DNA from: Hymenobacter sp. BRD128
GTDB lineage: Bacteria; Bacteroidota; Bacteroidia; Cytophagales; Hymenobacteraceae
Direction: 5' to 3'
Assembly (NCBI RefSeq): GCF_013256625.1
Contig: NZ_CP053908.1
Coordinates: forward strand, 1-64,000
Length of the DNA: 64,000 nucleotides
Part shown: positions 901 through 22,916 of the stretch, one piece after another
How the letters are laid out: every line of letters begins with the position of its first letter
Position numbering within the stretch: the first letter of the stretch is position 1
Program-made: the position numbers and the translations under genes
The notes under the pieces: model-generated
The model's database searches: none
Told to the model about the DNA's origin: nothing
What the model saw: the letters and a program-made list of their open reading frames with translations, nothing else

Positions 901-995
901 CAAAGGTTCCGTCGCGGCCGCCGGCCGGCCCTGACGTCTGTCAGGCCGGCGTCTGACGTTCGTCAGGTTTGCTGGCTAAGTGGCGCCGAATTTTG
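901..995. promoter_or_regulatory. Divergent promoter with tandem CRP/FNR-type sites
   Basis: Two dyads, CTGAC-GTCT-GTCAG (931-944) and CTGAC-GTTC-GTCAG (953-966), are centred exactly 22 bp apart. On the minus strand a -7-like box AACCTTTG (901-908) is centred 33 bp from the proximal dyad and would drive the CsbD-like gene. On the plus strand GAATTTTG (988-995) is centred 32 bp from the other dyad and would drive the USP remnant. The geometry matches class II FNR/CRP activation at about -41.5. Confidence 0.6.
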
Positions 996-1123
996 GTAGT
1001 GTAGAACCAGCGTTTTGAAAAGACTCCCGAGTACCTTGGCTAGTCTCTGGCCGCGCTGATAGCCGGGTAAACCGGGCGCATCAGGCTAAGGCATTGGCCG
1101 GCAGTCTATTCCTCACTTTCCCG

Positions 1124-1440
1124 ATGATGCCCTTATCTCGTTGTTTTGTCGGTTTTTGCCCAGCGGCCCGCACGCGAGCGCTACGCCGATACCCTAGGCC
1201 AGGCCCTGCACGCAAGGTGGTACTGCTGCACGTGCGCCGCGCCGCGCTTTTCGACCCGTGTAAACTAGTGGCGAGCGCTACCGCCAGGCCGAGTTAGCAC
1301 CGAAGTCGACACCACGGCCGCCTGCACCGGCAGGCCACCGGCTGCGCACGCCTGCCACCGTGGCGACCTGCTGCCGCCGTTGCCCATGACCTGACCACCG
1401 GCTTCCAGCCGGCCTGTTTGTGCTCCTACTCAGCCGTTAG
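1124..1440 (+). pseudogene. Universal stress protein remnant
   Basis: A degraded N-terminal half of a USP. Segments align with the intact USP at 25554: a start reading MPL, then PAR..YADTLGQALH, VVLLHVRRAALFDP and, in another frame, DLLPPL and PALFVLL. The order and spacing match residues 1 to about 110 of that paralogue, but several frame changes separate the segments and the second USP domain is absent. A GAnnTTTG promoter under the tandem operators lies upstream. It is probably a dying paralogue, or a gene hidden by indels. Confidence 0.55.
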
Positions 1441-1473
1441 TCTTTCAGCTTTTTACTTCTTTTAGCTTTTAGC

Positions 1474-2779
1474 ATGAAAAGAAACCCTTGCCGCGCTACC
1501 CTTGCCGCTGCCGACCGGCCGCTAGCCCGACTGGCCATGAAAGCCACGAAGGCACGCCGCTACGGCGACTACGGCCAACCAGCCGCCGCCGATGCGCCGC
1601 CCGCGCCCGACTACGAGCCGCCGGCGCAACGTCTACGACCTCAGCCACGAGCAAACCGAGCTGTAGGCCGCATGGGAATGAACGCCGCCATTTTTTGCCG
1701 GTGCCGCCGTGGCCGCCACCGGCACTGGTCTGCTGGCTACTACGCTGGGACCAGCCGCCGCCAGCTCGGCCAGCGCGGGCCGAGGCGCCCGCGCGCCCGC
1801 GGCCCGGCGCAGCTGCCGCCGATGCGCGCCGAATTTTGTACCTGGCCTCGCTGCCCCGAGCGGCCACAATACCCAGCCCTGACCGTGCGCCTGCTAGGGC
1901 CTACCACTGGGTTATCGGCAACGACCCGCGCGGCTGGCTGCCGGTGGTAGACCCCACCCAGCGCGAAACCATGCTGTCGCTGGGGCCTTTGCGCAGTGTT
2001 TGGAGTATGCCGCCGCTCACTTTGGCTACCAGTGCGCTGGCGGTGCGGGCCACTACCCGGCAGGCGGCCGACGTGCTGGAGTGCGGCTCGAGCGCCGGCC
2101 CGGCCCCGCTTACCCTGACCTCACGGGCTGCTGGGCCGGCGCACGCTGCGCACCGATTTTTCGCCCGTGCCTATTCAGCCCGCCGATGTGCAGCAGCTGA
2201 CCGGCGGCGAAGCTGCGCACTGCCGTTTTCTGGCTCCCGCCTCGGGCCGGGCCGCGACCTCACGGCCGCCACGCTGGCCGCCAACCAGCACCAAACCGCC
2301 CGCGACCCCGCCCAGTGCGAGCTGGCCCACTGGGTGCGCTGGGATGCCGCCGCCGTGCTGCGCCACCGCGACGGCCTTACGGCCGCCGGCATGGCATCGA
2401 GGGGCCCGCCGGCTGGCTGGTGCGGCATTTCTACGACAGTGCCCGCGTGCTAACGCCCGATTTCGGGCCCGCGGCTAGCCAAAATAACCGGCCAGCTAGC
2501 CACCCACGGCGGCTGGCTCGTGCTCACCAGCCCGGCGAGTCGGTGCCCGCGCTGTTGGCGGCCGCCGCCGGCTGGCGCGCATTTGGCTGCGGCCAAGGCT
2601 TTGAATATCGGTATTCATCCCATGACGCAGGTGCTCGAAGAAGCGCCCGGCCCCGCCGGCCTGGGCCAGTATCTGGGTTTGGGCGCGCCGGTGCAATTCG
2701 TGCTGCGCCTGGCTACGTGGAGAGCTACGACGCTCCCGTGAGCCCGCGCCGCCCCGTCGAGTGGTTTGTGCGCACCTGA
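1474..2779 (+). CDS. Acg-type FMN-binding nitroreductase family protein (frameshifted)
   Basis: Assembled across frames, this encodes an Acg-family nitroreductase-like flavoprotein. Visible segments in order are a hydrophobic anchor (AAIFFAGAAVAATGTGLLAT), NTQPWTVRLLGP, YHWVIGNDP, WLPVVDPTQRETMLSLG, LEYAAAHFGYQC, a middle region ending in GPAGWLVRHFYDSARVL, ALNIGIHPMTQVLEE and PRRPVEWFVRT. Acg proteins are linked to dormancy and USP regulons in actinobacteria and probably sequester or reduce flavin substrates. At least eight single-base indels break the frame, two of them beside CTAG (about 1891 and 2475). The exact start is uncertain; ATG 1536 is an alternative. It ends 32 bp from the convergent next gene. 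Confidence 0.65.
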
Positions 2780-2811
2780 GAATAGCGGGCGCCAGCGGTC
2801 GGCCCAGGTCC

Positions 2812-3317
2812 TCACCAGGGGCTACGCTGTGGCAAGCGCGCCCACGCCCAGGATTTCACGGCCCTGGCTACCTCGGCGGCCGTGCCGTGGGCGAGGAGCA
2901 GAAATTTGCCGGCCTTGATTTCCGTCTCGTAGTCGAGCACGCTGTTTTCGGAAATGCCAATGCTGGCCAGCGCCCCGGCCAGCGCGCTAATTGTGCCGCC
3001 CGCCACCGCGCCCTCAAGACCACCACCAGCGCGGCCACCAGCGGCCCGGCAATGAGCAGCGGCCCTACCCCCGGCACCAGGAAAAAGGCGGAGCCGAACA
3101 GCAGGCTCCAGATGCCGCCCAAAACGCGCCGGTGCTGCCCCAGCTCAGCATCCGGTCGCCGAGGTTGTAGTAGCCCACTACCTTTTCTTCGGTGTGTATT
3201 CCTGGCCCACAATCGAGAGATTTTGCAGGTTGTAGCCGCTGGCTTGCAGCTTCTTAACGGCCTGCTCGGCTTGCGCGTGGGTATCGTAGAGGGCCGATAG
3301 TACGGGTCATTATTCAT
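2812..3317 (-). CDS. DUF1269/GsiB-like general stress membrane protein
   Basis: A general-stress-17M/DUF1269-type protein. It starts MNNDPYY and continues in repaired frame with LYDTHAQAEQAVKKLQASGY and NLSIVGQEYTP. A Gly-rich membrane hairpin follows (GGIWSLLFGSAFFLVPGVGP, LIAGPLVAALVVVL), then GGTISALAGALASIGI, NSVLDYETEIKAGKFLLLAH and GTAAEV, all family hallmarks. The length of about 168 residues is normal. Three frame changes are needed. The activator-type promoter at 3390-3433 lies about 75 bp upstream of the start, so the gene probably belongs to the same stress regulon. The biochemical role of the family is unknown. Confidence 0.75.
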
Positions 3318-3389
3318 CAGAAAGGAAGGCTGGTGTGCGTGAAGAAGTGCGCCCCGCCCGGCCAGCGGGCTCGGTGCGGGGTAGCACTA

Positions 3390-3433
3390 CAAGAGTACGC
3401 GCTCCTTGGCAGGCCTCCCATGACGGAAGTCAG
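3390..3433 (-). promoter_or_regulatory. CRP/FNR-type promoter of the DUF1269 gene
   Basis: The dyad CTGAC-TTCC-GTCAT (minus strand, 3420-3433) is centred exactly 33 bp upstream of the -7-like octamer TACTCTTG (3390-3397). The start codon follows 73 bp downstream of that box. Confidence 0.55.
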
Positions 3434-3483
3434 GCTAACAGCTGATGATTTACAGTTCTTAGTAATCGCTATCCAACAGCTTC

Positions 3484-3923
3484 TTATAAGGAATGGGTGA
3501 GCTTAACCTCGTGGTTGGCCACAAAGTCCAGCAGCAGCTTCAGCAGCTGGGGCGCACGCGGGCTGCGGGCAAACAGCACCAGCGTATGGGCGTGGCGGCG
3601 CCAGTAGCGCGCGCAGCTCCTGGGCGTTGGCCACCCGGAAGCCCATGTTCCAGTCGGCAAAGCTGCGCTCGTCGCAGGCCCGGCCCCTAGCAGCGGCAGT
3701 GCTGGTGGCGCGGGTCGGCCACGATGTGGTCGTAGTACAAGGCCCGCACCACGGTTTCTTCGCCCTCCAGAATCTGAAAAAAGCGGTCGTCGGCGTGTGC
3801 AGCAGCAGGCCCGAGAGGCGGTGCTCGCGGTTAAAGGCGCGGCCTGGTGCAGCAGGCCGTAAGGGCAGCCTGGTCGAAGGGCAGCCGCGCCTGGCTGTGG
3901 TAAAATAAGTGATAGAGGCCCAT
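3484..3923 (-). CDS. BLUF-domain blue-light sensor protein
   Basis: A stand-alone BLUF photoreceptor of about 145 residues that binds flavin and senses blue light. In repaired frame it reads MGLYHLFYHSQARLPFDQA, then ARAFNREHRLSGLLLH, FFQILEGEETVVRALY, IVADPRHQHC and ERSFADWNMGF. The flavin-contacting Tyr (LFYHS), Asn (FNREH), Gln (FFQILEG) and the Trp/Met pair (DWNMGF) are all present, so photochemistry should work. The C-terminal tail LLKLLLDFVANHEV is a helix typical of short BLUF proteins. Several one-base indels occur; one at about 3686 is near CTAG. The start at 3923 gives the canonical BLUF N-terminus. No output domain is fused. Confidence 0.8.
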
Positions 3924-3991
3924 AGCGGCAGCAGCGTGAAGGAGAGCCCACCAAAAGGGCCGGTGGCCAGGCCGGCCCAGGCAGCGCTTAG

Positions 3992-4035
3992 CAAGTGGCG
4001 CTTAGGAATAGGTAAGTTACGCTGATAAGTTGAGT
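3992..4035 (-). promoter_or_regulatory. Possible CRP/FNR-type promoter of the BLUF gene
   Basis: On the minus strand a half-site ATCAG (14-bp window 4022-4035) is centred 33 bp upstream of GCCACTTG (3992-3999). Only one half-site is good, so this is the weakest member of the set. Confidence 0.3.
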
Positions 4036-4036
4036 A

Positions 4037-4410
4037 TCAAGCCGTTTTTAAGTGAATACCCCTAGCAGCTGCCGGCCCCGCCCGAGCAGGAGGCACCGCG
4101 AGCTTGTCCAGCAGCTGGGCCACGATGAACTCGCCTTCGGGCAGGCCCTGCTGCCGCCACAGCTCGACGCCTTGCCGCACCAGCACGAAGGCCGGCAAAT
4201 CGAGGGAGGAAGCTGTGCACCACCACCGGGTTGGTGCCCTCATCCACCGTAAGCACCCGGATGGCTGGCCCCAGCTGCGCTTGCAGCGCCTTTAGGGCCG
4301 TCAGCGTAGCCGCCCGCACTGCTGGGCCGTGCCCACGGGCGGCAGCAGCACCAGCAGTACCGCCGCCTCGGCGGGCTGCTGGGAAGTTGACGCAGGGTAG
4401 GTGAGTGCAT
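4037..4410 (-). CDS. Thioredoxin-fold protein lacking a CXXC motif
   Basis: A small thioredoxin-like protein. Repaired frames give SQQPAEAAVLLVLLPP, RAATLTALKALQAQLGPAIR, VLTVDEGTNPVVVHSF, DLPAFVLVRQGVELWRQQG and LPEGEFIVAQLLDKL. The cis-Pro region (LPAFVLVRQG) and the terminal helix fit the thioredoxin fold, but no CXXC active site is seen where expected after the first strand, so it is unlikely to be a disulfide reductase. It lies just downstream of mlaD on the same strand and may be co-transcribed. The start at 4410 is tentative. Confidence 0.5.
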
Positions 4411-4437
4411 AAGGATAGGCGGCAAATAGCAGAGAAC

Positions 4438-5538
4438 CTAAACAGTGGTAAAACTACTGCCTTTCCCGGCTGCCAACATGCGTATGCGGTATAAGTAGCT
4501 GATATGTATCATACTAATCGAATTAAAGTTAACCACAGCTTCATACAAGCAGCTTCCTACAAGCGCCCAAGGCGGCCACCGAATCGGTGGTAGCCTGCAT
4601 TTTTTTTCGGCCTGCTTCTTAAAATAGCCGCGCAGCAGGAAATTGTGTTGTAGGGCCGTCATGCTCTGGCTGAAGCTGGCCGTGCTCTGCTCCACGTTGT
4701 GCAGGCTCTGGCGCACCTGCCGGGCGGCGGCCGTATCGGCCAGCAGCGTGTGGCGGGCCCTGGCCAGCCAGCACCTGCTGCCGGAGACCCGCCACAGTGG
4801 CGGCCAGCGTATCGGTGGTGCGGGCCAGCTGCCGGCCGGCGTGCCCCAGCTGGGCCGGCAACTGCTTGTTCGTGAAAAGGTAGCCTAGTGGGCCCCGGCC
4901 CTGGCGCACGCCCTGCGTGAGCAGCGCCGCATCGGCGGCGGCGCGCTGCAGCTGGGTGCTGGCGGCAGCTACGTGGCCCAGGCTTTGGCGCACGTTAGCC
5001 GGCAGCTGCTTGTCGCTCAGGAGCTGCCAGATGGCGCTGGTGTCGAGCTTGGTAGCCATCTGGCGCAGGCGCTGCGTGATGACGACCAGGTTCTTGTTGG
5101 AGATGTCGAGGGTGCCCAGCATCGCATCGAGGCCTAGCGGGCTTTGGTGCGCAGCACATCGCCCGGCTCCACGGCGGGCCGGGCGGCCTGCGCCGTGAGG
5201 TTGATAATGGTGTTGCCCACCAGCCCATCGGTGCCCACCGAGGCCACCGCGTTTTGGCGCACAAACGCCTGGGCGTCTTTGTTGAGGCTCATGGCTACGC
5301 GCACCGTGCTGTCGTTCAGCAGCTTAATTTCCTTGACGTTGCCCACCGCAATACCCCTAGCCGCACGCTGTTGCCAGTGAGCAGGCCCGCCACGTTGCGG
5401 AAATCGGCCTGCACCACCAGGCTGCGCCCGAACAGGCTTTGCTGCCGGCCCATGAGGTAGAGCATCGCCAGCAGAAAGCCCACGCCCAGCACCATAAACA
5501 GGCCGAGACGCACGGTATTACCAGGGAGTTTTGGGCAT
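4438..5538 (-). CDS. mlaD: MlaD-family (MCE) lipid transport substrate-binding protein
   Basis: The periplasmic MCE-domain subunit of an Mla-type phospholipid transporter, anchored by one N-terminal helix (TVRLGLFMVLGVGFLLAMLY). The MCE domain follows: VQADFRNVAGLLTGNSVRL, VGNVKEIKLLNDSTVRVAM, VASVGTDGLVGNTIINL and EPGDVL. A long helical C-terminal part has repeated Gln/Leu heptads and a GPLGYLF motif, as in Bacteroidota MlaD. Frame changes occur near the start, at about 5354 (beside CTAG), at 5135 and near 4600, so the true C-terminus may lie at about 4550. It is the third gene of a minus-strand mlaE-mlaF-mlaD operon. Confidence 0.8.
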
Positions 5539-5639
5539 GACGGGGTAGGAAGGCAGTTTTTATTTAAAAAGGCAGTCCGTTTTAAGCGGATACCAGATGA
5601 GCATGACCGTTCTTTTTTAGCAATAAGCAGTTCATAATC

Positions 5640-6351: not shown

Positions 6352-6419
6352 AGGCTCGGCCCGGCGGGTGGGTAGGCGCGGGGCTAGAGCAGGGTAGGGA
6401 GCATGGGTTGAGAGGCTGT

Positions 6420-7176: not shown

Positions 7177-7284
7177 GGAAGGGCGTAGGAGTAGGGCTGC
7201 TTACGGCGAAATTATCCACTAAAGAAGCTGCAAAAGTATTGGCACTACCTAGCCGCCCGGCATGACAAGTAGTAGCTCAAATAG

Positions 7285-7328
7285 CTGATTTTTATCAGGT
7301 TTTGCCGGTAACTTACGGCCGACCTTTG
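7285..7328 (+). promoter_or_regulatory. FNR-type promoter of the sensor kinase operon
   Basis: The perfect dyad CTGAT-TTTT-ATCAG (7285-7298) is centred exactly 33 bp upstream of GACCTTTG (7321-7328). An ATGAC half-site lies at 7262-7266, about 22-23 bp further upstream. The kinase start is 36 bp downstream, so the kinase/regulator operon may be autoregulated. Confidence 0.6.
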
Positions 7329-7363
7329 GCGCTACTTCTGCCTTGCCAGCACCTTGCTTACCC

Positions 7364-8970
7364 ATGCTGTCCGCTTCCTACACCACCGTGCTGGCCAACC
7401 TGCTCTACACGCACTCGCGCGAGTTTGTGGGTATTTATGATGTGGCCTTGGGCTGGTTTACGCAGGTAAACCCGTGGCGGTGCAACTGCTGGCTACGCCT
7501 CCGAGGCCGAGTTTCTGGCCGACCCCGACCACTCGCTGCGCTCGCCGCCCTGGACGAGTGACGAGTGGCGGGTGCTGTGCGAGCTGACCCAGCGCGAAGG
7601 CCACCACGAGCTGGACGCCATCATTCGGCGCCACACCGGCGAGCCGTTCCCGGCCTACCTGCGGCTCACGTACTTTGAGGCCGAGGGCCGGCCCTCGCTG
7701 CTGGTGTGCCTGGCCGAGCAAAGCCCGCTGCAGCGCGCCGAGCGCGCGCTGGCCCACAGCGTGCGCCGCTTCGAGGCCGTGTTTACCAACGCCACCATCG
7801 GTATTATCGTCTGCGATAAAACCGGCAGTATCGTGTCGGCCAATGGCCTGGCGGGCGAGCTTTTTGGCTACTCGCAGCCCGCGTTGCTGGGCCAGCGCAT
7901 CGAAGTGCTGGTACCGGGTGCCGCCGGCCGCCGCCACGAGCAGCTGCGCAAAACATTCAACGCCCAGCCCCAGGTGCGCAGCATGGCGGGCACCGCGCCT
8001 TGCAGGGCCAGCGCCAGGATGGCTCGGTGTTTCCGGTCGAAGTCAGCCTGAGCTACTTTTACCTTGATGAGGAGCTGTACGTAGTGGCCTACGTCCTCGA
8101 CATTTCCCGCAAAAAGGCCGCTGAGCAGGAGCTGCACGACCAGCACCAGCAGGTGGCCCGCCTCAACGCCGAGCTCGAGCAGAAGGTGGCTGACCGCACC
8201 CACGCCCTGCTCAGCACCCTGGAGCAGCTCGAAAAGCGGGGCCAGGAGCTGGCCCAGGCCCTAGCCGCCGAGCAGGAGTTGGGCGAATTAAAATCGCGCT
8301 TCGTGAGCATGGCCTCGCACGAGTTTCGCACGCCGCTCACGGCCGTGCTCAGCTCGGCCGCGCTCATCGGCAAATACCCCGACGGCGACCAGCAGCCCCA
8401 GCGCCTCAAGCACCTGGAGCGCATCAATATCTCGGTCAACCACTTGAATGCCATTCTGGAAGAGTTTCTCTCCGTCGGGCGCATCGAGGAAGGCAAGGTG
8501 GAAATCAATCCAGTTGCTTTCGACCTGAATACCCTGCTCGACGAAACCCTGGCCGACGTGCAGAGCCTGCGCAAGACCGGCCAAACCTTCGTGCGGCAGG
8601 TGGCGTGCCCCGACCCGTTTTGGCTCGACTCGTCGCTGCTGCGCAAGATTTTGGTGAATTTGCTCTCCAATGCCCTCAAGTATTCGGGCGAAAACGCCAC
8701 AGTGACGGTGCAGGCGGCGTGCCACGATAGCCAGCTGACCGTCAGCGTGGCCGACCAGGGCGTGGGATTTCCAAGGAAGACCAGACCCACTTGTTCGAGC
8801 GGTTTTTTCGGGCCCGCAACGTTTCGACGGTGCCCGGCACCGGGCTAGGCCTCTACATCATTGCCCGCTATCTGGAGCTGATGGGCGGCACCATCGACCT
8901 GCAAAGCGCCCCCGACCAGGGCACTACCGTCACGGTCACCCTTCCCTATGAAAACCATTCTGCTGATTGA
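7364..8970 (+). CDS. PAS-domain sensor histidine kinase
   Basis: A cytoplasmic sensor kinase of about 535 residues. An N-terminal PAS-like region (LLYTHSREFVGIYDVALGWF) is followed by a second PAS (RFEAVFTNATIGIIVCDKTG) with its PAC end (DGSVFPVEVSLSYFYLDEEL). A coiled coil follows (QVARLNAELEQKVADRTHAL), then the HisKA box FVSMASHEFRTPLT with the phospho-acceptor His, an N-box (ILVNLLSNALKYS), a G1 box (VADQGVGFP) and a G2 box (GTGLGLYI). No membrane segment is seen. One-base indels occur near 7478, 7995 and 8775. The stop overlaps the downstream regulator by 23 nt, so the two form a translationally coupled kinase/regulator pair. Confidence 0.85.
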
Positions 8971-9997
8971 GGACGACGCGTTTATCCGCGAAAACACCGC
9001 CGAGCTGCTCGGGCTGGCCGGCTACGCCGTGCACGCCGCCAAAAACGGTAAGCTTGGCGTGGAGCAGGCTCTGGCCGAGAAGCCCGACTTGGTGGTGTGC
9101 GACATTATGATGCCGGTGCTCGACGGCTACGGCGTGCTGCATATTTTCAACCAGAACCCGCAGCTGGCGGGCGTGCCCTTCATCTTCCTCACCGCCAAAA
9201 CCGAGCGCATCGACCAGCGCCGCGGTATGGAGCTGGGGCCGACGACTACCTCACCAAACCCTTCAGCGAAAACGAGCTGCTGAGCGCCATCAGCGGCCGG
9301 CTAGCCCGGTTTCGGCACCTCAAGCCCGACTATGACCTGCGCGCCGGCGGCCTGGGCGAGTTTCTGGACGATGCCCGCGCCGTGGGCCACCTGGCTGGCC
9401 TGTCGGGCGACCGCAAAACCCACGCGGTGCGCCGCAAGCAGACCATCTACCTGGAAGGCGACGAGGTCACGCGGGGCTACTTCGTGCAGGCCGGCCGGGT
9501 AAAAACCGTGAAAACGACCGAAGGCGGCAAAGAATTGATTACGGGCTTTTATGGCCCCGGCGAGTTTTTTGGCTACCTGCCGTTGCTGGAGCACACCCTG
9601 CACAGCGACTCGCCGTGGCCCTCGACGATGCGGAGTTGGTGTACATTCCGCAGGATGACTTTTCGCAGTTGCTGCTGCGCAATTCGGCGGTGAGCCAGCA
9701 GTTTATTCGGCTGCTGGCGGGCCGCGTGCGCGAGCGCGAGCAGCAGCTCCTGACCATGGCCTACAGCTCCATCCGGCGCCGCGTGGCCGATACGTTGCTG
9801 CGCCTGCACGAGCCCATCAGCGCCGACCCCACCGCCAGCATCCAGCTCTCGCGCGATGACATGGCCGCTATGGTCGGCACGGCCCCGAGTCGCTCATTCG
9901 CACCCTTAGCGAATTCAACCAGAACGGCTTAATTGCCCTGACGCCCAAACATATTCGGGTGCTGCAGCCAGAGAGGCTGCGCCGGGCGCATTGGTAG
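8948..9997 (+). CDS. Receiver-CRP/FNR fusion transcription regulator
   Basis: A response regulator with CRP/FNR output. The receiver domain (residues 1-120) has ILLIEDD, the phospho-acceptor Asp in DLVVCDIMMPVLDGYG, Thr/Lys sites in FIFLTAKT and DDYLTKPF. A linker leads to a cyclic-nucleotide-like beta barrel (KQTIYLEGDEVTRGYFVQAG, RVKTVKTTEGGKELITGFYG, PGEFFGYLPLLEHT), a dimer helix (FIRLLAGRVREREQQLL) and a winged HTH with recognition helix PES-LIR-TLSEF. The Glu and Arg in E-xxx-R are the CRP/FNR residues that read TGA. No FNR-type N-terminal Cys cluster is present, so the signal probably comes from the overlapping kinase. Three indels (about 9239, 9610, 9885) break the frame. Confidence 0.85.
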
Positions 9998-10014: not shown

Positions 10015-10078
10015 CTGACAAACGTCAGGTAGCAAGGCGATTATTGTCAGCCAGGGGCCGGGCGCGGCCAGACCTTTG
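10015..10078 (+). promoter_or_regulatory. Tandem CRP/FNR-type sites with weak promoter
   Basis: The dyad CTGAC-AAAC-GTCAG (10015-10028) is followed 22 bp downstream by GCGAT-TATT-GTCAG (10037-10050), then by GACCTTTG (10071-10078), centred 31 bp from the second dyad. The only gene-like sequence downstream before the USP is the small ORF at 10134. Confidence 0.5.
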
Positions 10079-10374: not shown

Positions 10375-10718
10375 ACCGCGCCGGGCACCTAGCGCCGCTT
10401 AGGAAGAGCAGGGCGGGCCGACGTTGAAACAGCCCTGGCAACGCCTGCTAACCGCTTGTTTCCATGGACCCTGACCCGCCGCGTGGCGCTGCCAGCAGTG
10501 GAGCGGAGCGGGTGGTCAAGATAGCGCCGGTGCTGCTGCGGGCTGCTTGATTGCGTTGGTATGGGCGCTAATGATTTGCTCAGCGTGCCTTGTCAGAATG
10601 ATATACCAAGTTGCCCTCCGCGCCGGCCCCCGGCCCTTTTCCTGAAAGGAAGGAGCCGGCGCCGGCGCCAGAACAATGTCTATCAACCTGCCAAACACGT
10701 GACAAACCCCCTCATCCC

Positions 10719-11557
10719 ATGAAACCTAACTTCGTTGTCCTCACCGATTCTTCGCCTGCCGGCGAGCGGGCGCAAGCCTACGCCGCCGCGCTGGCCGCGC
10801 CGCTGGGGCCGAGCTGCACCTGGTGCATGTATTTGCCCCAATGGCCGTAACCACCCTGGAATATGGCTTTACGATGCCCATGCTGGACGTGGACTATGTG
10901 CGCGCACTCCGTAATTCCCTCGCCAGTGCCGCTGCGGGTCTATCCGTGCCCACTACCTCCGAAGTAATTGAAAATGAGTGGTACACGGCCGTGGAGCAGG
11001 CCCTGGATACCTATCGGCCGCTGCTGCTAATTGCTGGCCTCACGGCCACCCACGGCCGCCTCGAAGAGTGGCTCAATAACCGCGCCCTTCCGCTGGCCCA
11101 CCGCACGGGCTATCCGCTGCTATTGGTACCCGAGCACCTGCCCGCCGCCGCCCTGCGCCCGCCCCGCCGCCTGGTGCTGGCCGTGGAGGACCGCCCGTTT
11201 ACCCTCACGCCCGAGGCGCTGGCCCTGGCGCCGCTGCTGCAGGCGCTGGGCTGCGCGTTCGTCACGACCACCGTATTTCCGCCCCAGCAGGCCACGAGCG
11301 GCGAGGCGGGCTGGCTGGCCGCGCAGCGTTGCGGGCTAGCCCCCACCCTGGCCGGCAGTGCGCTGCACCGGGTGGTGGATGCGCGGCCCGCCGCCGGCAT
11401 CTGGCAGGCCACCGACGAGTTGGAGGCCGACATGCTGGCCTTGCTCGACCAGGGCCACGGCTGGATGCATAAGATGTTCAGCGGCAGCGTTATTGCCCAC
11501 GCTGTGCGGTTTTCGCAGGTGCCGGTGCTGCTGCTCTCGGCGCGCATGGCGGCCTGA
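10719..11557 (+). CDS. Universal stress protein (two-domain)
   Basis: A tandem USP of about 279 residues. Domain 1 begins MKPNFVVLTDSSPAGERAQA and, after a missing G in a G run near 10806, continues LHLVHVFAPMAVTTLEYGF, YRPLLLIAGL and HRTGYPLLLVPE. Domain 2 begins RRLVLAVEDRPFTLTPEAL and ends DMLALLDQGHGW, MFSGSVIA, SQVPVLLLSARMAA. The canonical ATP-binding GxxGxxxxxxxxG(S/T) loop is replaced by HGWMHKMFSGSVI, so nucleotide binding is uncertain. Its 3' half is nearly identical in DNA to the convergent USP at 11590-12524. Confidence 0.85.
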
Positions 11558-13161: not shown

Positions 13162-14597
13162 TTACAGTCCGTGGTCGGGCGAGATGAGCAGGTCGTTGTC
13201 CACGAAGCTGGCGCCGGCGTCGTAGGCCGCGTAGGTGGCCTGTTCGCGGTCGAGCCAGGTTTCGACGGTGCCCGTGAGCGTGGCGTGGCCTTTCTCTACC
13301 AGCACCTCTATCTCCTGATTATTGAGGCTAGCCGACCAGAAGTACCGGTTGCGGATGCGCTCGGCCAGGGCGAAGTCGGGTTGGGGCGGGCATAGTGGGC
13401 TTCCAGGCGGCGGTCTGGTAGGCGTTGAAATCGGGGCTGCCGGGCACGCTCACCCAGTTGTCCAGCTCTGCCACGCCATTCACGCCCGAGGCCACGGCCC
13501 CGGCCTGCTCCTGCTCAAAGTGCGTGCTCACCTGCCCATACAGCTGGGCCTTGCCGTTGCGCACGTACACGCTGAAGTCGCAGCCGCTCACGTAGGGTCG
13601 CGGGCCAGCGCCTCGCGGATGGTCTGGCCGATGTGCAGGTCGGGGATGAAGCGCTTGGTGCGTACTTTCAGCAGGTTATGTACGTCCCAGACGCCCACTA
13701 CGTGGCGGGCGTCGCGCTCGGCATCCTGCTTGGCGCGCAGGTTGCTCACGACCCCGCTCAGCGTCACCACGCCGTTGTGCACCGCCACCAGCGGCTGGTA
13801 CGAGAGCACGCGCGGGTCGAAGCGAAAGGCATCGACCACGGCCTGGGCAATGTCCTGGTCGGAGCGCGGGCTAGCTTGTCGCGCCGCAGCTCGTGGCCCA
13901 GCGCCCAGTAGGCCACCGCCAGGTCGCGGGCATCGACGCGCGCCGCGCCGGCCCGGTAAGCGGTGGCCTCCACGCGGTTTTTCTCGGCGGCGGTGCCCAC
14001 CGTGCCGCTCAGGCGCACTACCCGGTCGGTGGTGCGCACTTGCACCAGGGCGCTGTTCACCCGAATGTCCCAGGCCAGCAGCTCACGGATTTGGGTGCTG
14101 ATTTCTTCGTCCGAATTCTCGATTTTGCCCCAGCGGATAAGCAGGTCGTCGGCTCCAAGGCTACGCACGCCCTTCACGCCGCGCACCACGCGCAGCACCA
14201 GTTCCTTCTCGGCCCAGCTCTGGAGCGTGCCCGCTAGGGTAAGGTGGCCATCGGCGGCGGTGGCCTGCACGTTGTAGTCGCTGGTGGCGGGGTCGGCGGC
14301 CAGGGCGCTGGCTACGTGCGCTTGCAGCTCGTGGTCGGCCACGTCGGGCGTGCTGATAAGAATCTCATTCACCACGCCGCGCACGCCGCGCAGGGCCAGG
14401 GCAATTTCTTCGGCCCGCTCGCGCGAGAGCAGGTTGTCGGTAATGCCGGTCAGCAGCACAATGCCATCGTGGGTGGCTACGTCGATGAGGTGCGCAGCTA
14501 CGCCTTTCTTGGTGGTAAAAAACAGCTCAATGGCGGTCGTAATGTCTGCATCGACCACGTGCTCAATGGTCTGTTCGAAGGTTTCGAGGGTTTGCAT
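13162..14597 (-). CDS. Multi-BON-domain stress protein
   Basis: A protein of about 478 residues made of five or six BON modules and no signal peptide. BON-type repeats are visible: DVATHDGIVLLTGITDNLL, VQATAADGHLTLAGTLQSW, VQVRTTDRVVRLSGTVGTA, VAVHNGVVTLSGVVSNL, VYVRNGKAQLYGQVSTH and VLVEKGHATLTGTVETW. BON domains bind phospholipids or other ligands and occur in osmotic and envelope stress proteins; a cytoplasmic multi-BON protein is typical of Hymenobacter-like genomes. Indels lie at about 13871 (8 nt from CTAG), 13590 and 13400. The terminator at 13112 and the two-site activator promoter at 14649-14714 frame it as a single-gene unit of the stress regulon. Confidence 0.8.
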
Positions 14598-14648
14598 GGG
14601 TCACAAGGGCTAGGTTATTCCGGCTCCCGGTGAGCGCGAATTCACCCG

Positions 14649-14714
14649 TAAAAGTCGCCCCCTAGCCCCGCCGTAGTGCTGACAACAATTCCTTGAAAGT
14701 ATGACGTTTGTCAG
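14649..14714 (-). promoter_or_regulatory. Two-site CRP/FNR-type promoter of the BON gene
   Basis: On the minus strand CTGAC-AAAC-GTCAT (14701-14714) and GGAAT-TGTT-GTCAG (14679-14692) are centred 22 bp apart. The proximal one is centred exactly 33 bp upstream of GACTTTTA (14649-14656). Confidence 0.65.
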
Positions 14715-14769
14715 GTGGCCGGGGCAGGGCGCGCCCGGCTGAGGGCTAGCCCCCGGCCGGCCTCCGGCG

Positions 14770-16364: not shown

Positions 16365-16388
16365 CGGGCGGGCCGCCCGGCGGCTGGC

Positions 16389-16730: not shown

Positions 16731-16768
16731 ACCAAGCGCGGTTTAATAACAGAAAGGAAAGTCTGCTG

Positions 16769-16834
16769 CAAAAGTCCGCCTTTCGCCGCCGCGCGGCTAT
16801 GACCAGCAGGCTGGGCGCAGTTGATTTTCATCAA
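16769..16834 (-). promoter_or_regulatory. FNR-consensus promoter
   Basis: TTGAT-TTTC-ATCAA (16821-16834) is a perfect FNR box. A degenerate partner with an ATGAC half-site (16799-16812) is centred 22 bp closer to the gene. GACTTTTG on the minus strand (16769-16776) is centred 33 bp from that partner. Confidence 0.65.
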
Positions 16835-16910
16835 CTTGCCAAGGCAGGTACTGGTCTTGATTCGCGCACTACTAGGGCCGGTGGTGGGTTAGACATTAAG
16901 GGCCACCTAC

Positions 16911-18411
16911 CTATTCCCGCCTGCGCAGCCACAGGCTACTGGCTAGCCAGGGCCAACGGCCAAACAGCGCTTGGCGCACTGCCTCGTCGCGCTGGTATAC
17001 GTCGGCAAAAAAGCGTAGGTGGCCATTTTCGGCGGTGCAGGTGGCGTAGCGCACGTATAGGGCCAGGGCTGGGTCAGGCGCACATCGCGGGGCTGGGCTG
17101 GCGGGCGCACGCGTCGTCGCTGGCAGGTTCACGGGCTGGCCCGCGCGGCGCAGCAGGTAGGCGGCCAGCGCCAGGGGTGCTCTAGCCGGATGCAGCCGTG
17201 GCTGAGCGCCCGCATGGGCTGGGCAAACAGCTGGCGCTGCGGCGTGTCGTGCAGGTACACCGAGTAGGGATTATTAAACCGAAAAACGATGTTGCCTAGC
17301 GCGTTATCGCAGCACGTAGCCTGGCGAATGGTGTAGGGAAACTGCCGGGCCGTTACGTGCGCCCAGTTGATATGGGCCGGGTCGAGCAGCTCGCCCCGCT
17401 CGTCGTAGAGGGCGTAGTTGTGGCGGCCAGGTAGCCGGGGTCTTTCTGGAGGCGGGCAGCATTTCGCGCACGGCAATGGAGTGGGGCACGTGCCAGTCGG
17501 GGCCAGCGTGAAGTAGCGGATAGCGCTGCTCAGGGTAGGGTAGGCGTGGTGGGCTTGCCCACTACCACGCGGTAGCGGCGCAGCACCGAGTCGCGGGCTA
17601 CCACGTGCAGCTCGTAGGCCGGAATGTTAATCAGCAAATAGTCAGCTGACTGCGTCACCATTTCCCAGCGCCAGCGCTCCAGATTGAGGGCGGCCAGCTC
17701 GTAGCGCGCCTGGTGCTGCCGGGCCGAATCGGGGACGAAGGCCAGGCTAGCCAGCGCGCCAGTGCCTGCTGCAGCTGGCGATACTCGCGGTTGGTGGGCT
17801 GGCCGGCCAGCATGGCGGCGGGCACGGTGCGGCTGGCCAGGGCCGCGCGCAGCGCGGCCGGCGGCGCGGCCAGAGCAGTTCTTTCGCGCCCCGAAGGTGT
17901 GTAGGCCCGCAGTCGGCCCCGGTCGAGGTCGCGCCGGAAAGTCAGCACCGCGTCGCTGAGGTACACCTCCAACTGCGCCTGCTGGCGGGCCCGCCGGGCC
18001 GGGAGGGCTAGCGAGGCAGGCTGCGCGAGCGAGTCGCGCAGCGCCCGCAGGCGGGCGTGGCCGTAGTCGGCCGGGCGCAGGCCGTACTCGGCGGCGCGGC
18101 CCAGCAGAGCCAGGGCCACCGTGGCGTTGGGGCTTATATCGGCGCTGTCGGCGGGCAGTGTCCAGGCCGGCGCGCTGGCCGGGCCGTAGAAGGCGCGCAC
18201 CTCGGCCTCCGCCTGTAAGCGCGGGTGGGCGCGGCTGGTAGCGAGGGTATCGAGCAACGCCCGAATGAGCGGGCCACCGGCACTGCCAGGGCGGGGATTT
18301 GGGCGATGGTGCCGGCAGGCCAGCGGCGGCCACGTGCGTTGCGGGCGTCGGGCCGCACCCAGGGCTAGCCAGTAGCAGACAGGCACACAAACAACGCAAA
18401 GCAACAGTCAT
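16911..18411 (-). CDS. L,D-transpeptidase (YcbB-like) lipoprotein
   Basis: A periplasmic L,D-transpeptidase that cross-links peptidoglycan through 3-3 bonds. A lipoprotein signal is visible (LRCLCACLLLASPGC). The scaffold includes AEVRAFYGPASAPAWTLP, AEYGLRPADYGHARLRAL and LEVYLSDAVLTFRRDLDRG. The catalytic YkuD domain includes ADYLLINIPAYELHVVARDS, RYRVVVGKPTTPTLP, IVFRFNNPYSVYLHDTP and the active-site motif LSHGCIRLEHP with the nucleophile Cys. Roughly 500 residues, normal for YcbB/LdtD. Several indels occur, at about 18290, 17750, 17530, 17440, 17175 and 17090. It starts 34 bp after the D-lactate dehydrogenase on the same strand, so the two are probably co-transcribed. Confidence 0.8.
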
Positions 18412-18444
18412 CAAGGAGATATTAATTAAAATTGAGGTTATGGC

Positions 18445-19428
18445 CTACAGCTCATGCGCGGCGGCGCGGCCCTGGTCCCAGGCATCGAGGCTGGCTACGG
18501 TGGCGTCGGCGATATTGGTGAGAGCTTCCCGCGTGAGGTAGGCCTGGTGCCCGGTCACCAGCACATTTTTGTAGGTGAGTAGCTGCGCAAACGTTTTATC
18601 GCTTAGTTGGTCGAGCGCGTGATTGGCAAAAAATAGCCCTTCCTCGGCCTCGTACACATCAATACCCAGGTAGCCGAGCTGGCCGCTGGCCAGCGCCCGC
18701 AAGGCTGCCGCGGTGTCGAGCACGCCGCCCCGACCGGTGTTCACGAGCAGTACGCCGCGCTTCATGCTGGCCAGCAGCTGGTCGTCAATCAGGTGATGGG
18801 TGCCCTCGGTGAGGGGGTGTGCACACTGATAACGTCGGCCTGGGCGCACAGCTCGGGCAGGCTCACGTAGCGCAGGCCTTCCTGCTGCCCGCGCTCCGCA
18901 TCGGGCAGTACTTCGCAGCCCAGCACCTGGCAGCCAAAGCCGTGCAGAATGCGGGCCACCGCCGCCCCGATGCGCCCTACACCCACGATGCCCACCGTTT
19001 TGCCGTGCAGGTTGAAGCCCACCAGGTCGTCGAGACAGAAATCGTTGGCCCGCACCTGCAGGTCGGCCTGGCGCAGGTGGCGGCACAAGGCCAAGATAAG
19101 GGCTACCGCATATTCGGCGGTGGCGTGGGGCGAGTAGTCGGGCACGTTGGCCACGCGCAGGCCTAGCCGGTGGGCCGCCGCCAGGTCCACGTTATCGTGG
19201 CCCGTGGCGCGCAGCAGCAGGTAGTGCACGCCGTGCGCCCACAGCTGCGCCAGCAGTGGAGCCGATACTTTGTCGGTGGTGAACACGCTCACGGCCGCCG
19301 AGCCCTGCGCCAGCGGGCCGTGAGCGGGCCCAGCCCGGCCGCCAGCACGTGTAACTGATGCCGGTCGGCATTAGCCTGCTGCAAAAAACTGCGCTCAAAC
19401 GATTGGGTGCTGAAAATGGTGGCATTCA
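18445..19428 (-). CDS. ldhA: D-lactate dehydrogenase (2-hydroxyacid dehydrogenase)
   Basis: An NAD-dependent D-2-hydroxyacid dehydrogenase, most like LdhA, which reduces pyruvate to D-lactate during fermentation. It starts MNATIFSTQSFERSFLQQAN. Segments include LLLRATGHDNVDLAAAHRLG, VANVPDYSPHATAEYAVALI, the Rossmann motif TVGIVGVGRIGAAVARIL, catalytic Arg in LLVNTGRGGVLDT, Glu in LGIDVYEAEEGLFF and His in VLVTGHQAYLTREAL. Length is about 328 residues. Frame changes occur at about 19320 and 18815. The promoter at 19497-19540 puts it under FNR-like control, which suits a fermentative enzyme. Confidence 0.85.
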
Positions 19429-19496
19429 TGGCTTCATAGCGAAGGAAGAAATTGGCGGGCTGAAAATGCCCGGCTAGGCCTGCCGCAACTACCGCG

Positions 19497-19540
19497 TAAG
19501 ATTCGTGAAAAGCCTGGGCTGGCCCCATGATATTAGTCAG
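19497..19540 (-). promoter_or_regulatory. FNR-type promoter of ldhA
   Basis: CTGAC-TAAT-ATCAT (minus, 19527-19540) is centred exactly 33 bp upstream of GAATCTTA (19497-19504). The start codon is 69 bp further. Confidence 0.55.
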
Positions 19541-19676
19541 GCAAAAACGTGATGTTTGGCAAGGCTAGCCCGAGGTGGCCCGCGTTACTTAGGGTTGGGT
19601 AGGCCGGGTGGGACTAGCCCCATTCGCCAATATCCTGCTGATTATAAATATTTTATTCACACTAATTTCCTGCGCC

Positions 19677-20138
19677 ATGCCCTTCGTTTCGTTTAAGAAT
19701 GAGCACAATTCGCCGCATCTCAACGTGGACCACATTGTGCGCCTGGAGTTGGTGACGGTGCCCAGCAACCTGCCGGCGGTGAACATCTTCACCACGCGGC
19801 CCGAAGCCGACCTCACGGTCGAGTTTGCCACGCCGGCCGAAGCGCAGGACCTTATCGAATCCATCATAGCGTATAGCACCAAGAGCCCGGCGGCACCCTT
19901 CGAGCTGCTGTCCCCGGCCGGGGCCAAACCCAAGCTGCTGGCCTTCGCCCGGTTTGAAGCTGGCAAGCCGTATGAGCCGGGCGAGGTGGTACTTGGGATT
20001 GAGTGCTTCTACTTGGTTGATTTTCGACAGCTGGTTTCGGTTGTACTTAGCCACTTAATTGGTGGGCAGCACCAGCACGGGCACAGCGCTGAGGCGCAGC
20101 ACCTGGGCCGTGACGCTGCGGTGAAACAGCCCGCTTAA
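19677..20138 (+). CDS. Hypothetical protein
   Basis: I do not recognise this protein. It starts MPFVSFKNEHNSPHLNVDHI and continues VRLELVTVPSNLPAVNIFTT, then EFATPAEAQDLIESIIAYST. It looks like a small soluble alpha/beta protein of about 125 residues. The open frame continues to 20138, but everything after about 20050 lies antisense to the USP gene, so a natural stop at 20049-20060 masked by an indel is likely. An AT-rich leader precedes the start. No operator of the stress-regulon type is found upstream. Confidence 0.4.
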   Translation: MPFVSFKNEHNSPHLNVDHIVRLELVTVPSNLPAVNIFTTRPEADLTVEFATPAEAQDLIESIIAYSTKSPAAPFELLSPAGAKPKLLAFARFEAGKPYEPGEVVLGIECFYLVDFRQLVSVVLSHLIGGQHQHGHSAEAQHLGRDAAVKQPA

Positions 20139-20890
20139 GAACGAGTGCGGCCGGGCTAGCAATACAATCAGCTGGGTGTGCAGCTCGCTGGCTGCCAGCA
20201 AAATACCGTTCGCTGCAGTTTCTTCGCGCACTTCATAAAGGCTACTGCTGGTGATGGTGCCAAACAGCCCGGTGCGCCGTACCGACTCCAGGGCCACGTC
20301 GGCGTGCGAGGGTCCGTGTGCCTGGCTAGCCACGTGCACCACTGAGGTGGTGGGCTGCAGGGCCAGCAGCAGGTTGCCCAAGGCCAGCGAGGGCGGCGTA
20401 AGCGAGAACGAATAGCCATCGGCGGCCACCATGATGCGGTGCGGCAGCTCGGTTTCGGCGCAGCCTTCGGGCACCACCAGCAGCGGGTAGCGGCCGTGCG
20501 CAGCACCGACACCGTGCGGTGCGGAATAAGCCAGCCCAAATTCAGCGGGGCGTGCGGCTGCTCGCGGCCTAGCGCCAGCAGCAGCGGCTGGTGGCGCTGC
20601 ACGGCCCCGCGCACGGCCATAGTCAAGGTGTCAAGTGACAATTCGGCATCGGCGGGCACGGCGAGCATTTCGGCTTGCAGACACAGGTCGGCGCGCAGTT
20701 GGCGGCGGCTGGCCAGCTGGCCAGCCGTGGTGGCTAGCACGGCCTCGGGCTGTATTAAAGCATTCACGTTCAGGTACACGTGCAGGAGTACCAGGCGGCC
20801 TTGCAGGTGCGCCGCCAGGCGAGTGGTATAAGTCAGGGCCGACTCGGCCGCCCCCGACAGGTCGGTGAGCACTACAAAAGCTGGTTTCAT
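20055..20890 (-). CDS. Universal stress protein (two-domain)
   Basis: A tandem USP of about 277 residues. Domain 1 has MKPAFVVLTDLSGAAESALT, TRLAAHLQGRLVLLHVYLN and HQPLLLALGREQPHAPLN. After a missing base near 20498 domain 2 continues with YPLLVVPEGCAETELPHRIM, VAADGYSFSLTPPSLALGNL, TSVVHVASQAHGPSHADVAL and ELHTQLIVLLARPHSFLSGL, then FHRSVTAQVLRLSAVPVLVL. The C-terminal SGLFHRSVTAQVLR resembles the USP nucleotide-binding loop region. The start at 20890 is well placed relative to the two-site promoter at 20958-21023, so it is likely a core member of the stress regulon. Confidence 0.85.
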
Positions 20891-20957
20891 GGCTAAAAAG
20901 GTGGCGGCACCCGGCCGCAACCGCCGCCGGGCGCGGACCACAGGCAGCCCGCAGCCA

Positions 20958-21023
20958 TAAAAGTCGGCTTGGCCGTACGCCCGCGAAATGACGAATGAGA
21001 GCGCACCACTTGATTTATGGCAG
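20958..21023 (-). promoter_or_regulatory. Two-site CRP/FNR-type promoter of a USP gene
   Basis: On the minus strand CTGCC-ATAA-ATCAA (21010-21023) and CTCTC-ATTC-GTCAT (20988-21001) are centred 22 bp apart. The proximal one is centred exactly 33 bp upstream of GACTTTTA (20958-20965), the same octamer as at the BON gene. Confidence 0.6.
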
Positions 21024-21042
21024 CCGTGTGGGGGCGTGGCCG

Positions 21043-22092
21043 CTACCAGGGCGCGTGGCGCAGCTTCTCGGGCTCCAGCAGCCGCACGGCTTTTGGGGTC
21101 AGCTCCAGCAGGCCGTCCTGCCGAAACTCGCTGAGTGTGCGTGTCAGCGATTCGGGAGTCGTGCCCACCAGGGCGGCCAGGTCTTCGCGCGCCACCTGAA
21201 TAGCCGTGGTGGGCAGGCCGCCGGCTTGCTCGTGCAGGTGCAGCAGCACATCGGCCACGCGCCGCCGGATGGAATGGTAGGCCATGTGCAGCAGCTGCTG
21301 CTCGCGCGCACTCACCCGCCCCGCCAGCAGGCGCATAAACTGCGGGCCCACCTCGGCGTGGTGCAGCAGCAGCGTAAAATCATCCTGCGAGATATACACC
21401 AGCTCCGCATCGTCGAGGGCCACGGCCGAGTCGCGGTGGGGCGTGTGCTCGAGCAGGGCAGGTAGCCGAAGAACTCGCCGGGGCCGTAGAGGCAAGTAAT
21501 CAGCTCTTTGCCGGCGGCGGTGGCCTTCACCGTTTTCACCCGCCCGCTTTGCACGAAGTAGGCGCGCGTGGCTTCGTCGCCCTCCAGGTACACATCCTGT
21601 TTTTTGCGCACGGGGTGGGCTTTGCGGTCGCCAGCCAGGTGGTCGAGCCGGGCGGTGGCGCGGGCATCGGCCAAAAACTCACCTAGCCCGCCGGTGGCCG
21701 CCAGGTCGTGGTCAGACTGCAAGTGGCGGAAGCGGGCCAGCCGCCCCGCAATGGCGCCTAGCAGCTCGGCCTCGGCCAGGGCCTGGTGAGGTAGTCGTCG
21801 GCCCCCAGCGCCATGGCCCGCCGCTGGTCGGCAGGGTCAGCTTGGGCAGTGAGGAAGATGAAGGGCACCCCGGCCAGGCGCGGGTGCTGGGTGAAGTGCG
21901 CCAGCACGCCGTAGCCGTCGAGCACCGGCAGCAGCACGTTGCAGAGCACCAAATCGGGCGGGTGGGCCAGGGCCAGCGCCAGGCCCACCTGGCCGTTGGG
22001 GCGGCGTGCACGCCATAGCCCGCCCGCTCCAGCAGCTCGGCGGTCGCTTCCCGCATGCCGGCGTCGTCCTCCATCAGTAATATCGTTTTCAT
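21043..22092 (-). CDS. Receiver-CRP/FNR fusion regulator with Asp-to-Asn receiver
   Basis: A paralogue of the regulator at 8948. It starts MKTILLMEDDAGMREATAEL and continues in repaired frame. The phospho-acceptor position reads DLVLCNVLLPVLDGYG, with Asn (codon AAC, complement at 21938-21940) replacing Asp, so the receiver is probably not phosphorylated. The sensor barrel (KQDVYLEGDEATRAYFVQSG, GKELITCLYGPGEFFGYLP), dimer helix and winged HTH follow. The recognition helix TTPESLTRTLSEF keeps the Glu-xxx-Arg pair of its paralogue, so both should read the same TGA-type half-sites. Indels lie at about 22015, 21795 and 21460. No kinase gene is adjacent. It may be a constitutive or competing regulator. 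Confidence 0.8.
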
Positions 22093-22482
22093 TGGAAAAC
22101 AAGGAAGTAGCGGCCGGCCCGCTGGGTAGCATGAGCAGGCCAATGCTGGCCTGGTATCGCTGAATAGCCAGCAGGGCGCCGCCCCGGCCAGGGTTACGGC
22201 TAGGGGGTAACCTTCACGATAGGGGTGCCGCCCGGCTTCTGGTCCCGAAGAATTCAGGTTCCGTTCTCTGCACAATATCCTCGCCGCTGCGCCTGGGCGC
22301 GGCGCGCGGCCGGGGCCTGCCCGGCTAGCATAGGTAGCTTGCGCCGCCTACTTCTCATTTAAGGTACTGGCTTTCTGACAAGAAACAATAAAATTTCTCT
22401 CGACAGGCCGTTGGTGGCGCCCGGCCCCAGGGCCAGCGGGGTCATAAGCAGCTCGCTAGGGGCCGATTGTAGTTTGGCTGCC
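22093..22482. other. Intergenic region without recognised genes
   Basis: About 390 bp between two minus-strand genes. I see no convincing ORF, no operator with the 33-bp geometry and only scattered hairpin-forming GC-rich sequence. A CTGAC half-site occurs at about 22375 without a partner. Confidence 0.4.
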
Positions 22483-22755
22483 CTAGTACTCGGCCAGCAG
22501 CTCGTCGGGGTAGCACCAGGCCCAGCGCTCGCCCGGCTGCGCCGACGTGATAACGGGGTGTCGCGTGGCGTGGAAGTGCTTGGTAGCGTGCTTGTTCAGC
22601 GAGTCGTCGCAGCAGCCCACGTGGCCGCACTGCTGGCAGATGCGCAGGTGTACCCAATCGTCGCCCAAGGCCACGCACTCGGGGCATACGTGCTGGGTAT
22701 CGTGCTTCAGATGAGCGATATCAAGGGCGGTGAGGTGGGCGCAGAGAACAGCCAT
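22483..22755 (-). CDS. UBP-type zinc finger protein
   Basis: A 90-residue protein that is essentially one UBP-type zinc finger. It starts MAVLCAHLTALDIAHLKHDT. Zinc ligands are visible in HVCPECVALGDDWVHLRICQ and QCGHVGCCDDSLNKHATKHF, followed by HATRHPVITSAQPGERWAWC. In eukaryotes this fold binds the ubiquitin C-terminus. The bacterial stand-alone version is common, has no ubiquitin to bind and no known partner. The start at 22755 fits the domain; an upstream in-frame ATG at 22887 overlaps the operator of the divergent gene and is less likely. Confidence 0.8.
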   Translation of the reverse strand: MAVLCAHLTALDIAHLKHDTQHVCPECVALGDDWVHLRICQQCGHVGCCDDSLNKHATKHFHATRHPVITSAQPGERWAWCYPDELLAEY

Positions 22756-22873
22756 AAGCGGTAAGCAGGGCAGGAGTGAGCCAGCGAAGCTACGGGAAAT
22801 TACCTGGCCGGGAAGCAGGCTAGCCGCGCCACGTTGCGCCGGCTGCTGGTATAAGCAAACGCAGGCGTATGGG

Positions 22874-22916
22874 GTGATTTTTATCATAGTTTGGCCTGGG
22901 TGCGGCGGCTACCTTG
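22874..22916 (+). promoter_or_regulatory. FNR-type promoter of the amidohydrolase gene
   Basis: The dyad TGAT-TTTT-ATCA (22874-22885) is centred 33 bp upstream of CTACCTTG (22909-22916). The start codon lies 60 bp further downstream. Confidence 0.5.

Follow-up and report, generated by a model that had tools for sequence, protein, structure and literature searches.

Paired FNR-like dyads at activator-type promoters of a Hymenobacter gene island, with an island-encoded receiver-CRP protein as likely activator

The first 64,000 nucleotides of contig NZ_CP053908.1 (C1) of Hymenobacter sp. BRD128, whose genome is 4.88 Mb, are here called the window (C1:1-64000). They hold a copy of much of an island of stress and fermentation genes whose promoters carry one or two FNR-like dyads at nearly constant distances from an octamer of the Bacteroidota -7 type. 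The island encodes REC-CRP1 (8948..9996, forward strand), a protein with a receiver domain, a cNMP-binding domain and a Crp-type helix-turn-helix domain (HTH_Crp_2), and this receiver-CRP protein is probably the activator of the island promoters, predicted to act at low oxygen. The dyads, both spacings, their conservation, the association with receiver-CRP (REC-CRP) genes and the nature of the downstream genes can all be read at the level of sequence. A preliminary description of this DNA had proposed an undescribed FNR-type stress regulon of Bacteroidota. Its FNR-like dyad promoters are indeed kept in relatives, but in this genome the regulon is a local island, and across 101 genomes of the genus the promoter matches track the receiver-CRP protein and not an FNR-like protein.

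Promoter geometry in the window and in relatives

All ten dyads listed in the preliminary description (at 931, 953, 3420, 7285, 10015, 14701, 16821, 19527, 21010 and 22874) are found at those places. The consensus given for them, (C/T)TGA(C/T)-N4-(G/A)TCA(G/A), is exact in only five (931, 953, 7285, 10015 and 16821), while those at 3420, 14701, 19527 and 22874 match the inner TGAY-N4-RTCA alone and the dyad at 21010 has a mismatch in its core (GGCA). Five exact 14-mers compare with 0.33 expected from shuffled sequence, the maximum over 100 shuffles being 2. A second dyad exactly 22 bp further is a full dyad only in the pair centered at 937.5 and 959.5; the four other companions (centers 10043.5, 14685.5, 16805.5 and 20994.5) are degenerate, with one good half-site apiece. 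The distance from dyad center to octamer center had been put at 33 bp (31-33), and it is near-constant at 33, but the range is 31-34 across 11 promoters in the window.

Some of the spacings first given are off by 1-2 because the window copy of this region is ridden with deletions. Positions 1 to 32027 (no strand assigned) are a near-copy of C1:73006-105220 and, judging from the alignment, are likely an unpolished contig end: over the full length the alignment shows 3 mismatches, and the window copy has 8 insertions and lacks single bases at 196 places, with 192 of these 196 deletions in homopolymers of 2 or more and 140 of them affecting G. The two copies form a 32-kb near-identical direct repeat, 41 kb apart, which is likely an assembly artefact. 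Since the window copy resembles an unpolished contig end, its broken frames are mostly not biology, and the homopolymer deletions led us to reject reading them as such. Genes and spacings were taken from the better copy (C1:73006-105220), on which the same 11 promoters have a dyad-octamer spacing of 33 (eight), 34 (two) or 32 (one).

The two full dyads (931..966, no strand assigned) serve one promoter on either side, a leftward one from dyad 937.5 with octamer AACCTTTG (901..908, reverse strand; spacing 33 in the window, 34 on the better copy) and a rightward one from dyad 959.5 with octamer GAATTTTG (988..995, forward strand; spacing 32 in the window, 33 on the better copy). The operon formed by a PAS histidine kinase and REC-CRP1 has its promoter at 7285..7328 on the forward strand (dyad 7285-7298, octamer GACCTTTG at 7321-7328, spacing 33), and a leftward promoter on the reverse strand at 7231..7275 (degenerate dyad centered at 7268.5, octamer TACTTTTG at 7231-7238, spacing 34) faces an ABC permease gene. 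The octamer GACCTTTG recurs at 10071-10078 in the forward promoter 10015..10078, with dyads at 10021.5 and 10043.5 (degenerate) and a spacing of 31 in the window that becomes 33 on the better copy. Promoters with a degenerate companion on the reverse strand, all at spacing 33, are 14649..14714 (dyads 14707.5 and 14685.5, octamer GACTTTTA at 14649-14656), 20958..21023 (dyads 21016.5 and 20994.5, again GACTTTTA, at 20958-20965) and 16769..16834 (dyads 16827.5 and 16805.5, octamer GACTTTTG at 16769-16776), the last with a matrix score of 12.3, below the cut-off of 13. The others have a single dyad: 3390..3433 (reverse; dyad 3420-3433, octamer TACTCTTG at 3390-3397, spacing 33), 19497..19540 (reverse; dyad 19527-19540, octamer GAATCTTA at 19497-19504, spacing 33) and 22874..22916 (forward; dyad 22874-22887, octamer CTACCTTG at 22909-22916, spacing 32).

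The preliminary description holds up in its account of activator-type promoters. An FNR-like dyad stands about 33 bp from the octamer with little variation, often with a second one 22 bp upstream; the regulator operon is among those preceded by this layout, which is kept in relatives. The relatives' sample comprised 80 loci around receiver-CRP homologues (1.29 Mb), with open reading frames (ORFs) called mechanically; by regulator sequence, the closest named relatives are Hymenobacter species, at 86% identity at best. Outside ORFs, TGAY-N4-RTCA occurs 186 times, against 2-8 for each of five permuted palindromes and 4-27 for other gaps, as befits a two-fold symmetric site of the CRP/FNR type; dyads within ORF calls (120) are likewise above the permuted controls (13-25). 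Alignment of 87 oriented dyads, made without any -7 information, returned both spacings: the second dyad lies 22 bp off, and TTTG has its first base at +33 in 17 cases and at +55 in 25. An octamer matrix seeded at the 33-bp distance and controlled on the reversed sequence of the relatives' loci finds 203 octamers at 33 bp (2 in reversed sequence) and 22 at 34 bp (3 reversed). A smaller octamer peak 21 bp from the dyads (40 versus 7 reversed) is unexplained.

Dyad pairs spaced 21-23 bp number 209 in the 80 loci (6 in reversed sequence), with exactly 22 bp in 171; octamers flank 27 of the 209 on both sides, 158 on one side and 24 on neither, and 21 of the 27 flanked on both sides stand between divergent ORFs. 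When 29 pairs were picked by the dyad pattern alone from genomes of the order, which may include species among the 80 named loci, an octamer lay at 33 bp 15 times and at any other distance no more than 3 times; 26 of these 29 pairs are located between ORFs.

The T of TAnnTTTG had been described as mostly G. In relatives G is the commonest first letter but not the sole one: the octamers of 79 dyad promoters begin with G (41), C (20), T (17) or A (1), whereas 164 other upstream NAnnTTTG sites begin with G (45), C (32), T (61) or A (26), the contrast of G to T giving p = 6e-4. Departure of this base from T is as expected for activator dependence.

A local island that goes with the receiver-CRP gene

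In its own genome the regulon consists of a local island (C1 about 67-97 kb) and a single dyad pair next to the gene of a stand-alone FNR-like protein. With a matrix trained on other species, 16 promoter matches exceed 13 bits in C1:67-97 kb; the remainder of the 238 kb taken from this genome yields 6, two of them at the FNR-adjacent pair. Model R1 (75 promoters, 50 columns, built from promoters beside REC-CRP genes) gives 27 matches in this genome at E up to 10, of which 12 belong to the island, 9 to the window copy and 6 to other places. Genome-wide there are 49 occurrences of the strict dyad pattern and 21 of its backwards version; ten of the 49 are five island dyads counted in two copies, and of the 39 outside the island 6 fall outside ORFs where about 5 are predicted from the 13% non-coding share. 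Because dyads elsewhere show no such intergenic enrichment, the regulon in the present genome is an island regulon, and a genome-wide one was rejected. A result that the preliminary description had named as refuting, dyad/-7 pairs no commoner before genes than in control sequence, is not seen in the island or the relatives' loci, but dyads elsewhere in this genome do show it. The dyad pair outside the island (C1:3664050-3664083), whose octamers stand at 33 and 34 bp, lies just past the 3' end of the stand-alone FNR-like gene.

Across the genus, promoter matches follow REC-CRP. With presence taken as E at most 1e-60 for REC-CRP and 1e-40 for stand-alone FNR, the 101 genus genomes contain REC-CRP in 78, a stand-alone FNR match in 64 and a match to the promoter model in 79. 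Genomes average 3.82 model matches with both regulators (n = 49) and 3.48 with REC-CRP only (n = 29), against 0.13 with FNR only (n = 15) and 0.75 with neither (n = 8). Among the best-scoring 150 listed model matches (66 genomes), 148 are in genomes with REC-CRP, and 103 of those 148 are within 20 kb of the REC-CRP gene (1.7 expected). The untrained pair pattern matters here because R1 came from REC-CRP neighborhoods. Among genomes of the order, a 22-bp pair is found in 30 of the 54 that encode REC-CRP and in 9 of the 64 that do not (p = 1.9e-6, kinship uncorrected), and genus genomes average 1.99 pairs with REC-CRP versus 0.74 without. Of the genus pairs, 75 distinct ones, a part of the total, were listed: REC-CRP lies no more than 21 kb from 37 of them, a stand-alone FNR gene no more than 2 kb from 13, and the other 25 are near neither regulator, with REC-CRP and FNR rows on genomes or contigs lacking a listed pair left out of this count; positions for all the proximity counts were transcribed by hand.

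The multi-promoter island, then, goes with REC-CRP. Several observations weigh against so simple a pairing of promoter and regulator: 1-2 model matches occur in 5 of the 23 genus genomes without REC-CRP, the origin of R1 beside REC-CRP genes and the relatedness of the genomes bias the model-match counts, nine genomes of the order carry the 22-bp pair with no REC-CRP, and the layout is not exclusive to REC-CRP, given the 13 pairs near FNR and the 25 near neither. Because listed pairs also adjoin FNR or neither regulator, two or more CRP/FNR proteins probably share this pair layout.

REC-CRP1 itself has the makings of a response regulator, its receiver keeping the phosphoacceptor Asp, as do 80 of 80 homologues. 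The four cysteines that coordinate the Fe-S cluster of FNR are not present in REC-CRP1, which has one cysteine as translated, and its CRP part matches the FixK and Fnr models below cut-off. The island also encodes REC-CRP2 (21043..22092, reverse strand), a paralogue 70% identical to REC-CRP1 with Asn replacing the receiver Asp; given that substitution, it is perhaps a phosphorylation-independent partner.

Low oxygen as the predicted signal

A co-directional ORF follows within 500 bp for 195 of the 290 matrix promoter matches in relatives, giving 194 distinct genes, while 49 of the 290 fall inside an ORF call. The downstream proteins were clustered by BLAST, with chosen representatives named by profile and the rest by eye. 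A thioredoxin-like protein (37 loci) forms one of the largest clusters, together with an ATPase (24 genes, 23 loci) judged CcoI-like from its domains, ccoN (18), the kinase (14) and, with 13 genes in 10 loci, universal stress proteins; small clusters include acetate kinase (3), hemA (2) and phosphoketolase (2). In 70 of the 80 loci a promoter match stands just before the kinase gene, on the divergent strand in all 70 and additionally on the kinase strand in 17; the divergent-strand matches, about 1.3-2.3 kb before the receiver-CRP gene, precede the thioredoxin-like gene in 36 loci. An ORF of more than 200 aa ends at most 200 bp from the REC-CRP start in 77 of 80 loci.

The downstream genes had been summarized as stress proteins, a universal stress protein, D-lactate dehydrogenase and the regulator operon. 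The universal stress proteins, the dehydrogenase and the regulator operon stand, but relatives point to oxygen limitation over general stress. Low oxygen is indicated because ccoN, the CcoI-like ATPase, hemA, acetate kinase and phosphoketolase follow such promoters there. An excerpt of a study of Flavobacterium psychrophilum describes cbb3 oxidase and haem synthesis as raised under oxygen limitation (PMC9723704).

The kinase gene (7343..8970, forward strand, its frame broken in the window copy) encodes a PAS domain closest to FixL among solved structures, the best 7 of 14 matched sequences being FixL. FixL has a haem-binding PAS domain with a proximal His and a distal Arg. The haem-ligand His is kept in 75 of 78 kinases, while the residue aligned to the distal Arg is Arg in 26 of 78. 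Because this position varies, we make no firm claim that the kinase binds haem.

The proposed mechanism is as follows. The adjoining kinase with its FixL-like PAS domain would phosphorylate REC-CRP1 as oxygen falls; a REC-CRP dimer would then bind the proximal dyad at -41.5 and contact RNA polymerase in place of a -33 element, that is, we infer class II activation. Two helical turns further upstream, at -63.5, another dimer would strengthen activation or, where the flanking genes diverge, act on the promoter of the opposite side. These positions follow from the 33 bp to the octamer center with the octamer at -12 to -5, so that the -41.5 placement uses an octamer position from another species; an excerpt of a mapped transcriptome places TAnnTTTG of Bacteroidota primary-sigma promoters at -12 to -5 (PMC9723704). 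A bolder version, which we rate a little short of an even chance, is that the FixL-FixJ-FixK cascade has been folded into one step in Cytophagales: a FixL-like kinase would act through a single receiver-CRP protein that itself drives class II promoters built on the Bacteroidota core. Its dimers, stacked at a distance of two helical turns, could serve two divergent promoters at once, around what would be an oxygen-shortage island in most Hymenobacter genomes examined.

It is unlikely, though worth keeping in view, that REC-CRP is the activator but answers a signal other than oxygen, such as redox state, nitric oxide, envelope stress or starvation stress. The island here encodes universal stress proteins and BON proteins and lacks a cbb3 oxidase (no ccoN above cut-off was found in the present genome), and the FixL distal Arg position is variable among the kinases, all of which tells against an oxygen signal. 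Speaking for oxygen are the phosphoketolase, acetate kinase and D-2-hydroxyacid dehydrogenase genes of the island itself, ccoN and hemA behind such promoters in relatives, and the resemblance of the PAS domain to FixL. Rather less credence is due to the stand-alone FNR-like protein (C1:3664275-3664982) as an activator that senses oxygen directly and uses the same dyads, with REC-CRP as passenger or fine-tuner. Its sequence does contain an FNR-like recognition helix and an N-terminal cysteine cluster, its gene adjoins a dyad pair whose octamers stand at 33 and 34 bp, and such a gene is found no more than 2 kb from 13 of the 75 listed genus pairs. The promoter matches are nevertheless independent of FNR, as the means of 3.48 for REC-CRP only and 0.13 for FNR only indicate (other FNR proteins may have been missed at E at most 1e-40), and it was rejected as main activator since model matches follow REC-CRP across the 101 genomes.

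That the dyads are repressor operators is very unlikely. Self-repression does occur at some autoregulated CRP/FNR genes, but these dyads would sit at -41.5, off the octamer and the start, and the octamer differs from TAnnTTTG in its first base. As the source of the geometry, chance or an assembly artefact is scarcely credible. Positions 1 to 32027 are indeed a flawed near-copy, and no enrichment between genes is seen for dyads outside the island; against this stand the five strict dyads where 0.33 are expected, a spacing more regular on the better copy and the identical geometry in other species. Chance was rejected on the shuffles, the permuted palindromes, the alignment made without -7 information, the reversed-sequence pairs and the 29 pairs. 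The reading we retain is that of REC-CRP as the likely activator, predicted to work at low oxygen.

Island genes and related systems

Besides the regulators, the island encodes universal stress proteins (10611..11557, forward; 20055..20941, reverse), a protein with six BON domains (13162..14597, reverse), the D-2-hydroxyacid dehydrogenase earlier called D-lactate dehydrogenase (18445..19488, reverse), a YkuD protein and an antiporter, the last named by eye. An acetate kinase-phosphoketolase gene pair lies left of the better copy, behind a promoter match at C1:68654. At 22483-22887 the window encodes a small protein that carries a zinc finger of the ubiquitin-protease type (zf-UBP), and two further universal-stress-like genes (by eye) at 24574-26334 come after the cluster with no preceding promoter match of this type.

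REC-CRP1 is neither a FixJ nor a FixK. FixJ joins a receiver to a LuxR-type helix-turn-helix, whereas REC-CRP1 joins one to cNMP_binding and HTH_Crp_2; FixK is a CRP/FNR protein without an Fe-S cluster, under FixLJ control, whereas here the receiver is fused to the CRP part. FNR/ANR-type class II promoters have TTGAT-N4-ATCAA at -41.5, and share with the island promoters the TGAY-N4-RTCA dyad and its inferred position. They differ in that the proposed activator here has a receiver domain and one cysteine, that the dyads often come as 22-bp pairs, some common to two divergent promoters, and that the -7 box is that of Bacteroidota. The FixL-FixJ-FixK system of Alphaproteobacteria, a microaerobic cascade (PMC4999443), likewise has a PAS oxygen-sensor kinase, a receiver protein, a CRP/FNR activator without an Fe-S cluster and cytochrome oxidase targets (here found in relatives). 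In the present system receiver and CRP are fused in one protein, leaving one transcription step fewer, the -7 box is of the Bacteroidota kind and haem sensing is putative.

The low-oxygen-activated (lxa) locus of Burkholderia cenocepacia, as far as an excerpt describes it (PMC9104464), is similarly an island in which several universal stress proteins are encoded together with metabolic genes; its low-oxygen induction is established where that of the present island is predicted, and here the island itself includes the regulator. Bacteroidota primary-sigma promoters, according to the excerpt already cited (PMC9723704), have the same A-n-n-TTTG octamer core, but the first base here is more often G or C than T, and an activator dyad lies over the -33 region. 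Class II FNR-like promoters and low-oxygen islands are thus already known. A limited search of open-licence PMC papers found no description of a receiver-CRP system with such geometry on the Bacteroidota core.

If the proposal is correct, it would supply an activator geometry for the Bacteroidota promoter type, with a proximal dyad at -41.5 and a second at -63.5, and would give the receiver-CRP response regulators a target set and a predicted signal. The promoters, the regulator and the gene island are directly testable in culturable Hymenobacter.

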